The notes beneath the pieces are model-generated. The model was given only the letters and a program-made list of their open reading frames with translations. It was not told where the DNA came from and ran no database searches. Shown here piece after piece: positions 48,111-56,303 of a stretch of 64,000 nt of DNA. The DNA lies in NCBI GenBank assembly GCA_002869565.1, contig PKUJ01000024.1:1-64000 (forward strand), given 5' to 3'. Numbering within the stretch: the first letter of the stretch is position 1; the number at the start of each line of letters is the position of its first letter. Source of the stretch: Arcobacter sp. Its GTDB lineage: Bacteria; Campylobacterota; Campylobacteria; Campylobacterales; Arcobacteraceae. A program made the position numbers and the translations under genes.

Positions 48111-49571
48111 ATGAGCAAAAATGAGTTTAAAACTCAAAAATTTATAGTTAAATTTTTCCCAGAAATTATGATAAAAGGTTCTTCAGCTAAAAGACAAATG
48201 GTTGGACAACTTTATGGAAATCTTCAAAAGTTACTTTCACGAATTTCTGAAGATATAAAAACAAAAAAATTCTTTGATAAAATAGAAGTTGTATGTCCCA
48301 TTGATTTTGTAATTGAAACAAGATTAAGATTATTGGAAACTCCAGGTATTGAGTTAGTATTAGAGGCATTACAATTTGATAAGGTGACTACATTAGATGA
48401 AATTAAAGTTATTGTAAATGAACAAATGGCAAAAGAGATTGAAGGTAAAACTTTCGTTGTTCGTGCTAAGCGTTCAGGTACACATGATTTTAAATCTACA
48501 AATATAGAACAAACTGTTGGTGGATATATGTTAGCTCATAGCAAAGCTAAGAGTGTTGATTTACATAATCCGGATGTAACTATAAATGTTGAATTATTGA
48601 ACAATCAATTAAATATTATAACTCAAAGATACAAAGGTCTTGGTGGTTTTCCTTTAGGTTCACAAGGAGATATTTTATCTTTGATGTCTGGTGGATTTGA
48701 TTCTACAGTTGCTTCTTATCTTACTATGAAAAGAGGACTAAAAACGCATTTTATTTTCTTTAATTTAGGTGGTGTAGCACATGAAATTGGTGTTAAACAA
48801 GTAGCTTTCTATTTATGGAATAAATTTGGTTCATCACACCGAGTATCTTTTACTTCTGTTCCTTTTGATGATGTTGTAACTGAAATATTTAGGTCAACAC
48901 ATGAATCATATATGGGTGTTACATTAAAAAGATTAATGTTAAAAGCTTCTGAAAAAATAGCAAATGAGATGGGAATTGATGCGCTTCTTACAGGTGAAAG
49001 TGTTGCTCAAGTATCAAGTCAAACTTTGAGAAATCTTGCGTTGATTGACCAAGCAACAGATAAACTTGTAGTTAGACCCCTTGCAACGATGAACAAACCT
49101 GAGATTATGGATATTGCAAATAATATTGGTACTAGACATTTTGCAGAAGCAATGCCTGAATATTGTGGTGTAATATCTAAAAATCCAGTAACTCACGGTT
49201 CATATGATAGGATGGAAAAAGAGTCCAAAAAGTTTGATTATTCTGTTTTAGATAAAGCTGTTGAAGATTCTATAAGAATAAATGTTGACGAAATAGCAAA
49301 TGATGTTGAAGAAATAGGGCAAATGGAAACGGTTAGTGATTTGTCTAGTGGAGAATACACAGTAATTGATATTAGACAAGGTTCTGATTGTATTGAAACA
49401 TCTTGCGAAACTATTAAAATACCATTTTATAATCTAAAAAAAGAGTTTAAGAAACTTCCTCAGGATAAAGAGTATTTATTTTACTGCGATAAAGGTATAT
49501 TGAGTCAACTTCACGCCCAATATTTAAGAGATGCAGAAAATTATAAAAATATTAAAGTTTATAGACCTTAG
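48111..49571 (+). CDS. thiI: tRNA 4-thiouridine synthase ThiI with rhodanese domain
   Basis: 486 residues. A ferredoxin-like plus THUMP region (about 1-170) is followed by the PP-loop ATP site LMSGGFDSTVASYL (about 192-205), the adenylation core, and a C-terminal rhodanese domain (about 395-486) with catalytic cysteine near 459 (YLFYCDKGILSQ) and partner CGVISKNP near 352. It makes 4-thiouridine in tRNA and supplies sulfur for thiamine thiazole. The rhodanese-bearing form uses the Cys pair for sulfur relay. A terminator follows. Confidence 0.95.
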   Translation: MSKNEFKTQKFIVKFFPEIMIKGSSAKRQMVGQLYGNLQKLLSRISEDIKTKKFFDKIEVVCPIDFVIETRLRLLETPGIELVLEALQFDKVTTLDEIKVIVNEQMAKEIEGKTFVVRAKRSGTHDFKSTNIEQTVGGYMLAHSKAKSVDLHNPDVTINVELLNNQLNIITQRYKGLGGFPLGSQGDILSLMSGGFDSTVASYLTMKRGLKTHFIFFNLGGVAHEIGVKQVAFYLWNKFGSSHRVSFTSVPFDDVVTEIFRSTHESYMGVTLKRLMLKASEKIANEMGIDALLTGESVAQVSSQTLRNLALIDQATDKLVVRPLATMNKPEIMDIANNIGTRHFAEAMPEYCGVISKNPVTHGSYDRMEKESKKFDYSVLDKAVEDSIRINVDEIANDVEEIGQMETVSDLSSGEYTVIDIRQGSDCIETSCETIKIPFYNLKKEFKKLPQDKEYLFYCDKGILSQLHAQYLRDAENYKNIKVYRP

Positions 49572-52991: not shown

Positions 52992-53056
52992 TCTAGGTCT
53001 CAGGTTGAGATTCCATCATAATAATTTGATGGACAAAATTAATCACAATTTTGGAG
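52992..53056 (+). promoter_or_regulatory. Structured leader before the di-iron protein gene
   Basis: Three consecutive perfect hairpins: TCTCA-GGT-TGAGA (52998-53010), TCCATCA-N8-TGATGGA (53012-53033) and CAAAATT-N6-AATTTTG (53034-53053). The last abuts and partly includes the GGAG ribosome site (53053-53056) of the TTG start at 53063. The layout suits control of translation by a ligand or protein. It does not match any riboswitch class I can name. Confidence 0.55.
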
Positions 53057-53062
53057 ATTCTT

Positions 53063-54313
53063 TTGTATTCATTAAATCACTCAATATCCATCCCTATCGG
53101 TAATATGCCACCTTCTAAAGAACTTTTTTTAAAACTTGAAAATGCATTTTTAATAGCAAATACCCATGAAATAATTGAAATAGTATCTTTAAAACCAAAT
53201 ATCGAAATAGAACTTCGAGGTTGGGCAAAACTAAGAGGTCATCTCTATTTAGGTCGTGAAACTTTAAAAGAACAATATTCATACAAAATTCAAAAGATAA
53301 ATAAGAATTCTTTTACTAATAAATCTTCTTGGGGTAAAAAAATGAAAGGAATTGACTCTTCAAATCCTAAATTAAAAGATTTAGAACTATCAGATGAGAT
53401 TCTAAAAAAAGCTCCTGATTCAAATGGACTTATGACAAGAGGAATTGAGCCCCAAGATGGAACTCCATTTTATGGCTTTGAACTCTCATTTAAAGAGCAA
53501 GTTTGGTCAGAACCAGTATCTGTATTATATGAAGAGGGGAAACATGCCCAATGGAATGCTACAAGTGATATTGCATGGAATGAAATACCAACATTAGACC
53601 CAATAATTGAAAAAGCAGTTTGCCAAATCATGACTTATTTAGTTGAAAATGAATTTTCAGCTTTATATATCCCAGGAAAGTTTATTAGCAAAATAAATCC
53701 ATACTATATGGAAGTACCACTATTTTTATCTTCATTGATGAATGATGAAGCCAGACATATCGAAGTTTTTACAAAAAGAGCAAATGCAAATGGTGGAGGA
53801 TTTCAATATTCAAGTGAAGTTACTCAACGCTCTCTTTATTCACTTTTTAAAGAAGATGATTATATAAAAAGTTCTTTTTTACTTCATGTTATGGGAGAAG
53901 GCACTTTTATAGACCTTTTAAGTTTTTTAGAAAAACATATGCCAGATGAAACTACAAGAAAAATCATAAAACTTTCAAAAAGAGATGAGATAAGACATGT
54001 CGCATATGGGATGGAACATGTTAGATCAGCAATACAACAAAATCCTAAAAGAATAAATGCTTTAAAAAATACAGCTTATAGAAGAAAAGAGTTTATGGAT
54101 GAAGTGAGTTCTGAGTCATCTATGGTTTTGGAATCACTTGCAATTTTAGCAGGAGGAAGTGATTCTGCGCTTGATTATAAAAGAGGTTTTGATTTGGTTG
54201 AAGAATTAAAAGCAACAATGAATACAAATAGAATCAAAAGATTGATTGACATTGGAATGGATGAAGAATTAGCAAATGATATTTCCAGTGTTCATACACC
54301 AAATTTTATGTAG
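53063..54313 (+). CDS. Ferritin-like di-iron protein with cysteine-less TusA-like N-terminus
   Basis: About 416 residues, start TTG 53063 six bases after GGAG. Residues 1-75 look like a TusA/SirA fold (IPIGNMPPSKELFLKLENAF, WAKLRGHLYL), but the catalytic CPxP cysteine is replaced by Met-Pro-Pro-Ser (15-18). The rest is a ferritin-like four-helix carboxylate domain with likely iron ligands Glu197, Glu229/His232 (DEARH), Glu279 (GEG) and Glu309/His312 (DEIRH). A di-iron oxygenase or oxidase is likely. It heads a three-gene operon; no pathway can be named. Confidence 0.75.
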   Translation: MYSLNHSISIPIGNMPPSKELFLKLENAFLIANTHEIIEIVSLKPNIEIELRGWAKLRGHLYLGRETLKEQYSYKIQKINKNSFTNKSSWGKKMKGIDSSNPKLKDLELSDEILKKAPDSNGLMTRGIEPQDGTPFYGFELSFKEQVWSEPVSVLYEEGKHAQWNATSDIAWNEIPTLDPIIEKAVCQIMTYLVENEFSALYIPGKFISKINPYYMEVPLFLSSLMNDEARHIEVFTKRANANGGGFQYSSEVTQRSLYSLFKEDDYIKSSFLLHVMGEGTFIDLLSFLEKHMPDETTRKIIKLSKRDEIRHVAYGMEHVRSAIQQNPKRINALKNTAYRRKEFMDEVSSESSMVLESLAILAGGSDSALDYKRGFDLVEELKATMNTNRIKRLIDIGMDEELANDISSVHTPNFM

Positions 54314-54321
54314 GAGAAAAA

Positions 54322-55449
54322 ATGAGTAATATATATAATAAAATGTTAGATTTTGCCAAACAAAATATCGCACCTTATACAGATAATGTAGATATAGATG
54401 CAAAATTCCCAATTGATAGCTTTGAAGCAATCAAAAAAAATAAATTGACAGGTTTAGTTGTCCCTAAAGAGTATGGAGGTATGGGTTTTGGTCTTGAAGA
54501 ACATACTCAAACTGTACTAGCTTTTGCTTCAAGTTGTGCAACTACAGGACTTTGTTATATGATGCATAATGTTGCAACTATGTGTATAGTAGCTTATGGT
54601 AGTGAAGAGATGAAAAATGAGTATTTACCAAAAATTTCAAGTGGTGATTTACTTTTAGCTCTTGCATTTAGTGAAACAGGTACGGGTACTCATTTTTATA
54701 ATCCTGAAATTACAGTTATAAATAGTGATAATAAGTTATTTATGAATGGAAGAAAAAGTTTTGTTACATCTGCACTTTATGCTGATTATTATTTAGTACT
54801 TTCTAATAGTTTTGAAGTAGAAGGTCTAGATAGTTGGTTAGTACATAAAGATTTGAGCGGTGTAACATTTGAAGAATCGTCATGGAATGGATTAGGAATG
54901 AGAGGAAATGCCTCAATGCCTATGATATTTGATAATGTTGACATTGATATTTCAAATAGAGTTGGTACTGCAGGAAGTGGGGCGGAGCAAGTATTTAATG
55001 TTGTTGCACCATTTTTTGTAATTGGATTGAGTGCAGTTTATACAGGTGTTGCATTAAATGCTTGCAATACTATTATTGATTATTCTATGAGTAGAAAATA
55101 TAGTGATGAAAGTGCTTTATGTAACATACCAACAGTACAAAATCATATTGCAGATATTTATACAAATGCAACAAGTGCAAAACACTTTACTTTAGCAGCA
55201 GCAAAAAGTGGAGCAAATGGCGATGCAGATGCTTTAGCACAGATAATTTCAGCAAGATTAAATGCCTCAGATATGGCAGTATCTGTTTGTAATAAAGCTA
55301 TGAAAATTGGTGGAGGTACAGCTTATGCTAAAAGAATCACTATCGAAAGATTATTAAGAGATGCCTACGCAGCACAAGTAATGGCACCAAGTACTGACGT
55401 ATTATCAATTTGGCTTGGAAAAGCTTTAACAAATCAACCAATTCCTTAA
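54322..55449 (+). CDS. Acyl-CoA dehydrogenase-like flavoprotein
   Basis: 375 residues with the three-domain acyl-CoA dehydrogenase layout: helical N-terminus (GLVVPKEYGGMGFGLEE), beta domain (LALAFSETGTGTHF, FMNGRKSFVTSALYADYYLVL) and C-terminal helices (IGGGTAYAKRITIERLLRDAYAAQVMAPSTDVLSIWLG). The usual catalytic glutamate position cannot be confirmed by eye. Relatives include flavin monooxygenases of sulfur compounds (SfnB/DszC type). It lies eight bases after the di-iron gene with an AGGAGAAAAA site. Confidence 0.85.
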   Translation: MSNIYNKMLDFAKQNIAPYTDNVDIDAKFPIDSFEAIKKNKLTGLVVPKEYGGMGFGLEEHTQTVLAFASSCATTGLCYMMHNVATMCIVAYGSEEMKNEYLPKISSGDLLLALAFSETGTGTHFYNPEITVINSDNKLFMNGRKSFVTSALYADYYLVLSNSFEVEGLDSWLVHKDLSGVTFEESSWNGLGMRGNASMPMIFDNVDIDISNRVGTAGSGAEQVFNVVAPFFVIGLSAVYTGVALNACNTIIDYSMSRKYSDESALCNIPTVQNHIADIYTNATSAKHFTLAAAKSGANGDADALAQIISARLNASDMAVSVCNKAMKIGGGTAYAKRITIERLLRDAYAAQVMAPSTDVLSIWLGKALTNQPIP

Positions 55450-55459
55450 GGAGAAGAAT

Positions 55460-56287
55460 ATGAACAAACCAATTATGCTAGGAGCTGTTGCTTATGATCC
55501 TAAAGTTATTCCAATTTGGGATATTATAAGAGATTATTTTAATGATAATGGTGTTAGATTAGATTATATTTTATTTTCTAACTATGAAGCTCAAGTTGAA
55601 TATCTTTTATCAAATAAAATTGATGTTGCATGGAATACAAATGTAGCATGGGTTAGGTGTAATGAACTTAGTAATGGAAAAGTAAAAGCTTTAGTAATGA
55701 GAGATACAGATATAGATTTTCAATCTGTATTTATAACAAAAGCAAATAGTGGTATAAAAAGTATTAATGACCTAAAGGGAAGAAAATTTGCTCTTGGAAG
55801 TGCAGATTCAGCGCAAGCTGCAATCTTACCATTAAAATATCTTCAAAATGAAGTTGAAAATATTGATGATATTGAAATTGTACGATTCAATTCAGATTTA
55901 GGTAAGCATGGAGATACAGGCAGAAGTGAATTTGATATACTTGATGCAATTTTAAATGATAAAATTGATGCTGGTGCTATTGGAATAAGTTCTTGGGTTA
56001 GAATGATTGAAAATGGAATGTTTCCAAGTGGAGAAATAGAATCATTTTATGTAAGTCCTGGATATTGCCATTGTAACTTTACAGTACTAGATACTTTAGA
56101 TGAAACTATTCAGAAAAAATTTGCAGAGATGTTATTAGCACAAAATCCAAATGATCCAATCATTAAAAAAATGATGCAAATGGAAGGTCTAAATAAATGG
56201 GTTAAAACAGGAGCAGAAGAGTTAAAAGGTTATGAAGTTTTAACAACTGCTATGAGAGAACAAAACTTAATGAAAAATAACTGGTAG
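55460..56287 (+). CDS. PhnD-like phosphonate/phosphate-binding protein without signal peptide
   Basis: 275 residues. The type II binding-protein core of the PhnD family is clear (DYILFSNYEAQVEYLLSNKIDVAWNTNVAWVR; FITKANSGIKSINDLKGRKFALGSADSAQAAILPL; SEFDILDAILNDKIDAGAIGISSW). There is no N-terminal hydrophobic segment: the protein starts MNKPIMLGAVAYDPKVIPIW, so it should stay in the cytoplasm. No permease or ATPase lies nearby. It may act as an enzyme or ligand carrier, like the NMT1/THI5-type proteins that share this fold. Start nine bases after the previous stop with AAGGAGAAG. Confidence 0.83.
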   Translation: MNKPIMLGAVAYDPKVIPIWDIIRDYFNDNGVRLDYILFSNYEAQVEYLLSNKIDVAWNTNVAWVRCNELSNGKVKALVMRDTDIDFQSVFITKANSGIKSINDLKGRKFALGSADSAQAAILPLKYLQNEVENIDDIEIVRFNSDLGKHGDTGRSEFDILDAILNDKIDAGAIGISSWVRMIENGMFPSGEIESFYVSPGYCHCNFTVLDTLDETIQKKFAEMLLAQNPNDPIIKKMMQMEGLNKWVKTGAEELKGYEVLTTAMREQNLMKNNW

Positions 56288-56303
56288 GATTTTCCTACTG
56301 GTT
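56279..56303 (+). terminator. Terminator after the PhnD-like gene
   Basis: An 11-bp stem with two G-U pairs (AACTGGTAGGA, loop TTT, TCCTACTGGTT), containing the TAG stop codon in the left arm. The following T-run is weak. Confidence 0.65.

Follow-up and report, generated by a model that had tools for sequence, protein, structure and literature searches.

To our knowledge, how selenium from organic sources is supplied to SelD in bacteria is poorly understood. In Escherichia coli, the selA leader carries a hairpin which we take to be a SelB-bound element of the selenocysteine insertion sequence (SECIS) type that represses selAB. Relatives of two of the genes described below belong to the Rv1678-Rv1681 set of Mycobacterium tuberculosis, whose NCBIfam names give no function; one member, Rv1680, is termed a "putative phosphonate transporter component" on structural grounds in PMC8562490, and other papers mention fadE16 or Rv1680. 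Here, we describe an operon in a 64,000-nucleotide stretch of Arcobacter sp. DNA (assembly GCA_002869565.1, contig PKUJ01000024.1, positions 1 to 64,000; hereafter the window), whose three genes lie on the + strand: gene A (53063-54313), encoding a TusA-like domain joined to a ferritin-like di-iron oxygenase domain; gene B (54322-55449), encoding a flavoprotein of the acyl-CoA dehydrogenase (ACAD) fold that lacks the catalytic Glu; and gene C (55460-56287), encoding a cytosolic PhnD-fold, Rv1680-like protein. An initial annotation, made from the sequence alone, had claimed tight spacing and a di-iron, an ACAD-like and a cytosolic PhnD-like product; the gaps are indeed 8 and 10 bases and the families are as described, with weak matches for A. 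The results showed that A-B-C is a real, conserved unit, and its most likely role is freeing or converting an organic compound of selenium (or sulfur), B and C being constant and the third module variable.

Strong matches to the substrate-binding protein family model (277-334 bits; curated cut-off 400) were found in 12 of 100 genomes, the remaining genomes staying below 50 bits, and A was present in exactly those 12, the source genome counted. All 12 regions contained the compact A-B-C block within mostly different flanks, and in one of them the A frame was broken by a stop. A wide scan of genome contigs confirmed 299 relatives of C, and the best 80 of these were taken for locus analysis, in which a partner was counted when its profile matched within 3 kb of C, on the strand of C. 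The best 80 loci comprised 49 with A and B, 28 with B and a radical S-adenosylmethionine (radical-SAM) protein, and one each with A only, a radical-SAM protein only and B only. A adjoined C in 50 of them and the radical-SAM protein in 29, and the two were never found together near C. These counts bear out the conservation of the genes as a block, and the failure of homologues to co-occur, which the initial annotation had held against its own proposal, is not what was found, because A and C co-occur in the genome samples.

The A-type hosts among the best 80 loci were Arcobacter-like bacteria, Helicobacter, Brachyspira, Sulfuricurvum, Paenibacillus, Cohnella and Ammoniphilus, together with bins of Armatimonadetes, Blastocatellia and Chloroflexi; most hosts of the radical-SAM type were actinobacterial. 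Pairwise distances across 44 loci were correlated at 0.92 for A-B, 0.90 for A-C and 0.80 for B-C. In a sample of 249 Campylobacterota genomes, C was present in 33 and A in 30, all within those 33; in the remaining three, genes for a core methionine synthase and an OsmC-like protein come after B and C, and at E 1e-30 this operon-type synthase occurred in those three genomes alone. A was rare in Paenibacillaceae (1 of 118 sampled genomes, that one being the centre genome of the sample), and neither viral contigs carrying C nor plasmids carrying A were found. Decayed copies were observed in an Arcobacter locus with a stop-broken A (L037:7592-8854), in Paenibacillus sp. P25 with A and B spread over several frames (L069:7494-9957), and in one of the 30 A-bearing Campylobacterota (G308, locus L134), where remnants of A and C only are left. 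The literature search yielded no paper that we recognised as describing the operon, and a term search of two selenium papers (PMC5322559, PMC9312934) returned neither "acyl-CoA" nor "phosphonate". The system appears, as initially annotated, to be an undescribed one in which two redox enzymes accompany a cytosolic protein of binding-protein fold.

The leader contains a SECIS-like hairpin, HP1 (52996-53012, + strand; stem GGTCTC/GAGATT, loop AGGTT), recognised by folding and covariation. The structured leader claimed initially is modest in the window alone (minimum free energy -17.9, z -1.9) and is borne out by covariation across loci: in 42 hairpins (27 distinct), chosen for their pairing, each of the five stem pairs varies at both of its positions. 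Defined as a stem of at least 5 pairs with a loop AGGNW, CGTGH, CGGGT or GGTGT, a loop set fixed only after the leaders had been inspected, HP1-class hairpins were found in 40 of 55 windows upstream of A (close relatives among them), compared with a mean of 0.3 and a maximum of 3 in 200 mononucleotide shuffles. Pairing held in 99.3% of cells versus 67.6% in shuffles, a figure biased because the hairpin segments were picked for pairing; the comparison of frequencies is free of that selection bias, with a background in the same loci of ~0.012 per 95 bases. The 15 windows without HP1 belong to five Paenibacillus/Cohnella hosts, which also lack SelA, and to Ammoniphilus, Armatimonadetes, Chloroflexi and Blastocatellia, the rest being three bins from Campylobacterota, a single Brachyspira and two Helicobacter (4-pair stem or variant loop). 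A similar hairpin lies 30 bases before B in two of the three operons with a core methionine synthase (L131 and L132). A model of the Arcobacter-type leader gave one strong match in its own genome (next, E 0.84) and matches in 9 of 60 genomes, seven at the operon and two weak (E 0.08); in the wider family survey this leader occurred once per operon-bearing genome. At gathering scores, Rfam gave no match in the window, with chance-level matches only around the leader, and four matches in seven relative loci (three tRNAs and one tRNA-Sec).

In E. coli K-12, the 98 bases upstream of selA form the hairpin CCTTCTC(CGTGT)GAGAGGG with the loop starting 33 bases before the ATG, and HP1 of a Helicobacter operon leader (L048) reads ATCTC(CGTGT)GAGAT; the two share the 13-mer TCTCCGTGTGAGA, found in 2 of the 175 loci compared. 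HP1 has the features of a SECIS-like leader of the selAB type, namely a small G-containing loop placed in the 5′ untranslated region (UTR) near the first start codon. In a survey of 16 selD regions, 14 of which had a readable in-frame UGA, three genomes belonging to the same family as the window had SECIS hairpins behind the UGA with loops CGGGU, CGGGU and CGUGU, both kinds being HP1 loops in other genomes. The other genomes surveyed had UGGAA-like, CGGAG or CGUCG loops, and one Sulfuricurvum gene in an fdhA-like context had GGUGU. We consider it probable that the leader is selenium-responsive.

SelD was present in all 33 C-bearing Campylobacterota versus 190 of 249 overall (Fisher 6e-5, kinship uncorrected). 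The survey also covered one Bacillota family and 49 genomes, obtained from 50 chosen loci of the best 80; among the 49, SelD was found in 19 of 21 A-type hosts, 8 of 27 radical-SAM-type hosts and the single B-C-only host. The two A-type misses were a draft Brachyspira genome, in which SelA is present, and a metagenome bin. In three Sulfuricurvum loci selD is the gene immediately upstream of A, the end of a fourth locus holds part of selD, and two Sulfuricurvum genomes (G357 and G359) contain two selD matches each. Of 66 genomes searched for SelA, 60 had it; the exceptions were the five Paenibacillus/Cohnella hosts and that same metagenome bin. In most of those five, selD adjoins a rhodanese-like open reading frame (ORF; by eye), with MnmH confirmed in one. 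Because the MnmH explanation is supported, SelD in Paenibacillaceae, where its background is 63 of 118 genomes, is no proof that the operon uses it.

The A protein was modelled from 51 sequences with a predicted local distance difference test score (pLDDT) of 91.2. Its N-terminal TusA-like domain (53084-53293, + strand; residues 12-81 of the frame from 53051) has a predicted beta-alpha-beta-alpha-beta-beta order, and Foldseek placed E. coli TusA (3lvj_C) at rank 41 (E 7e-3, TMt 0.80, 74 columns). With Pfam TusA (PF01206; cut-off 28.6), a Cohnella homologue of A passed at 33.9 bits, and the Arcobacter-type homologue (L027), at 12.6 bits, did not pass. The di-iron domain (53528-54301, + strand; residues 160-417) has candidate ligands E199/E201, E233, H236, E283, E313 and H316, conserved at 100% in a 51-row alignment except E233 at 98%, and the modelled four-helix bundle shows the E, ExxH, E, ExxH pattern of ferritin-like di-iron oxygenases. 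The nearest structures to this bundle were aldehyde-deformylating oxygenase (Z 20.5, root-mean-square deviation (rmsd) 2.3, 211 aligned), VlmB (Z 20.3, rmsd 3.8, 250 aligned) and R2lox (Z 18.4, rmsd 3.4, 232 aligned). Profile matches of A to DUF455 and R2lox were both weak and under cut-off, and five A homologues gave at best 18.4 bits with the AurF Pfam family (cut-off 29.6).

B passed the cut-offs for the N-terminal, middle and C-terminal domains of acyl-CoA dehydrogenases. The catalytic Glu of these enzymes occupies either the QIYEGT position or the isovaleryl-type position; in B, A355 (QVMAPST) replaces the former and the latter also lacks Glu. B scored 275.6 bits against the Rv1679 NCBIfam family (curated cut-off 600), with DszC and SfnB among its weaker family matches. 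C matched the Phosphonate-bd family and starts with MNKPIMLGAVAYDP, in which no signal sequence was seen by eye; against the Rv1680 family NF049985 it reached 332.3 bits, under the curated cut-off of 400. Its structure model (74 sequences; pLDDT 95.9) is closest to PhnD1/PtxB (7s6g: Z 25.5, rmsd 3.3, 258 aligned), and DszB was not among the matches listed, a listing that excludes nothing. PhnD proteins bind their anion through an STS run; at this place C has S117-A118-Q119. A phosphonate role, considered for C, is not supported and was rejected because two of the three residues are replaced. In five of five C proteins tested, the second-best NCBIfam family was "putative selenate ABC transporter substrate-binding protein", with all scores far under cut-off, and none of A, B or C matched the SelA or MnmH families. 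As for the sulfur, phosphonate or cofactor-like compound initially suggested, the sulfur or cofactor-like direction lies near the findings because of the TusA-like domain, the core methionine synthase partner and the selenium link; the phosphonate part fell with the changed STS run.

Comparison of the third partners suggested that one TusA-like domain may be carried by three catalytic modules: di-iron, radical-SAM and core-MetE. With hhalign, the N-terminal domains of A and of the radical-SAM proteins aligned in register over 48 columns (E 3e-5, probability 73%), compared with E 0.39-0.54 for four unrelated pairs and 0.0046 for the full-length proteins. In a set of ~30 sequences, to which the following E-values refer, the profile of the A domain matched the N-terminus of a Paracoccus core-MetE protein (48 bits, E 1e-15) and the free TusA neighbouring it (17 bits, E 5e-6), its best score with radical-SAM proteins being 5 bits (E 0.026); the radical-SAM domain profile matched the Paracoccus fusion at 13.5 bits (E 7e-5). 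Because of these low profile scores, the tie to the radical-SAM domain is the weakest of the three. The Paracoccus fusion itself scored 24 bits with Pfam TusA, under the cut-off. It is encoded on plasmid pFER4 (L135:357-8571), amid genes for a cysteine desulfurase (opposite strand), TusA, DsrE, two unknowns, SelA and thioredoxin reductase (TrxB). The three variants from Campylobacterota noted above (L131:3516-7218, L132:4073-7595, L133:4521-8140) consist of B, C, the core methionine synthase, which has no folate domain, and the OsmC-like gene. On other plasmids, a Miltoncostaea replicon (L023:1-10853) carries B, C, DUF2515 and a radical-SAM/SPASM gene, with a second radical-SAM gene of the Rv1681 kind nearby and selD ~6-7 kb upstream on the opposite strand, and on a Mycolicibacterium plasmid (L021:1-13856) genes resembling Rv1678-Rv1681 lie close to those for a deiodinase-like protein, glutaredoxin, CcdA and a disulfide oxidoreductase. 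The initial annotation had noticed neither the TusA-like domain, nor the resemblance of the leader to SECIS elements, nor that the third partner is exchangeable.

By analogy with E. coli, SelB charged with selenocysteinyl-tRNA would bind HP1 at high selenium and lower translation, so that the A-B-C proteins would be made under selenium shortage. In the cytosol, C would then bind a small organic compound of sulfur or selenium, and B, having lost the dehydrogenase base, might oxidise or oxygenate the bound compound. A would dock through its TusA-like domain and, with O2 at its di-iron centre, cleave or oxidise a C-H or C-Se(S) bond to yield a selenium form usable by SelD. In other lineages, the slot of A is taken either by a radical-SAM protein, whose N-terminal domain is TusA-like, or by the core methionine synthase. 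We infer SelB binding, the direction of regulation, the substrate, the order of steps and the product.

The selenium reading is favoured because of the leader, the adjacency of selD and the co-occurrence with SelD, and chalcogen chemistry because of the nature of the partner proteins. A role of the operon in selenium metabolism appears slightly the better bet, and that A-B-C is a cytosolic redox pathway under selenium control is an even call. It is possible, on the doubtful side, that the operon is a new selenium-supply pathway, with SelB/SECIS-like control, selenium freed from an organic compound for SelD, and interchangeable di-iron, radical-SAM and core-MetE versions sharing one TusA-like docking domain; the particular steps, substrate and product proposed above are rather unlikely to be right as a set. 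Several observations weigh against the selenium reading. The sulfur-carrying Cys of TusA sits in its CPxP loop, and by eye no Cys was seen at that place in 18 A sequences. The HP1 loops were chosen with the leaders in view, the SelD surveys are confined to Campylobacterota, one Bacillota family and 49 chosen genomes, and SelD is common in Campylobacterota. No HP1 was found before A in Ammoniphilus, Armatimonadetes, Acidobacteria, the genome G090 or Brachyspira L063, all with SelA, nor in Chloroflexi L103, where SelA is split and under cut-off. The 28 radical-SAM-type loci that contain B, eight of them with SelA, likewise showed none ahead of B, and no HP1-class hairpin preceded selA in 17 C-bearing genomes. 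Among the three genomes of the window's family with leader-type selD loops, the sole operon carrier (G029) has CGGGU at selD versus AGGCU in its leader, and the operon-bearing Helicobacter-type genomes have UGGAA-like or CGGAG selD loops, not the CGUGU of operon leaders. What speaks most strongly against a role confined to selenium is that 19 of 27 radical-SAM-type hosts are without SelD; B and C therefore work there without selenophosphate.

These SelD-less hosts are also what speaks for a general sulfur or one-carbon pathway, in which B and C would process a sulfur compound, whichever third partner is present would complete the work, and selenium is touched only in selenium-using hosts or the SelD link reflects lifestyle. 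The core methionine synthase of three operons, in which the zinc and homocysteine residues of PMC7857596 are apparently present (matched by eye), the TusA-like domain, and DszC and SfnB among the matches of B point the same way; the SECIS-like leader and selD upstream of A in Sulfuricurvum are left unexplained, and we regard this alternative as unlikely. Conversely, the operon could consume the selenophosphate made by SelD for a new selenium small molecule, beside selenocysteine, selenouridine and the selenium cofactor. SelD co-occurrence and adjacency, the doubled selD matches in G357 and G359 and the leader would suit such a consumer; however, SelD in the Paenibacillaceae is explicable by MnmH beside selD (confirmed in one of five, with a similar ORF seen by eye in others) and most radical-SAM-type hosts do without SelD, which makes it improbable. 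The resemblance of the A bundle to VlmB and aldehyde-deformylating oxygenase and the weak AurF profile score would fit a selenium-independent natural-product or N-oxygenation pathway, in which A would act like VlmB/AurF or aldehyde-deformylating oxygenase and B like ACAD-fold N-hydroxylases. This proposal seems very improbable, given that the AurF cut-off is missed, the leader points to selenium, and no further constant neighbours of the A-type block were found in the compared loci.

Regarding the remaining features of the locus, the reading frame of A could begin as early as TTG 53051, and TTG 53063 is the likelier start because a Shine-Dalgarno-like GGAG (53053-53056, + strand) lies six bases 5′ of it and this TTG is kept in relatives (by eye). 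A second leader hairpin, HP2 (53013-53032, + strand; CCATCA...TGATGG), was predicted from the fold of the window leader and is absent from the RNAalifold consensus of 14 leaders. The single terminator initially annotated is not supported on the + strand after C: a hairpin overlapping the end of C (56284-56298, GTAGGA-TTT-TCCTAC) scored as terminator-like in the consensus scan on the - strand only. ORF 48111-49571, some 3.5 kb 5′ of the operon, looks ThiI-like with a C-terminal rhodanese domain (by eye only).

The operon occurs in Campylobacterota, Brachyspira and Bacillota, most of those in the first two groups having the SECIS-like leader, and selenium control here would extend SelB-type regulation beyond selAB. 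It also offers a testable claim on uncharacterised genes with mycobacterial relatives Rv1679-Rv1681, and a swap of di-iron, radical-SAM and methyltransferase modules in one slot would be an unusual instance of a single step served by three chemistries. In comparison with the Rv1678-Rv1681 set (NF049986, NF049984, NF049985 and NF049973), B is related to Rv1679 and C to Rv1680, both scoring under the curated cut-offs, and the partner here is the TusA-di-iron protein, there the radical-SAM protein Rv1681. In 4S desulfurisation, DszC and DszB likewise pair an ACAD-fold oxidoreductase with a cytosolic enzyme of binding-protein fold; we keep this as a parallel only, C being closest to PhnD/PtxB. The folate-independent methionine synthase MesD with MesX, as described in PMC7857596, joins a core-MetE to an oxygen-dependent partner and so offers a precedent for operons of the third architecture, although the partner families differ and the window operon has no MetE. 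With the E. coli selAB leader, HP1 shares the stem-loop class, the loop CGTGT and a 5′ UTR position not far from the first start codon; it differs in preceding another operon, in having loops AGGNW, CGTGH or CGGGT, and in being a putative SelB site.

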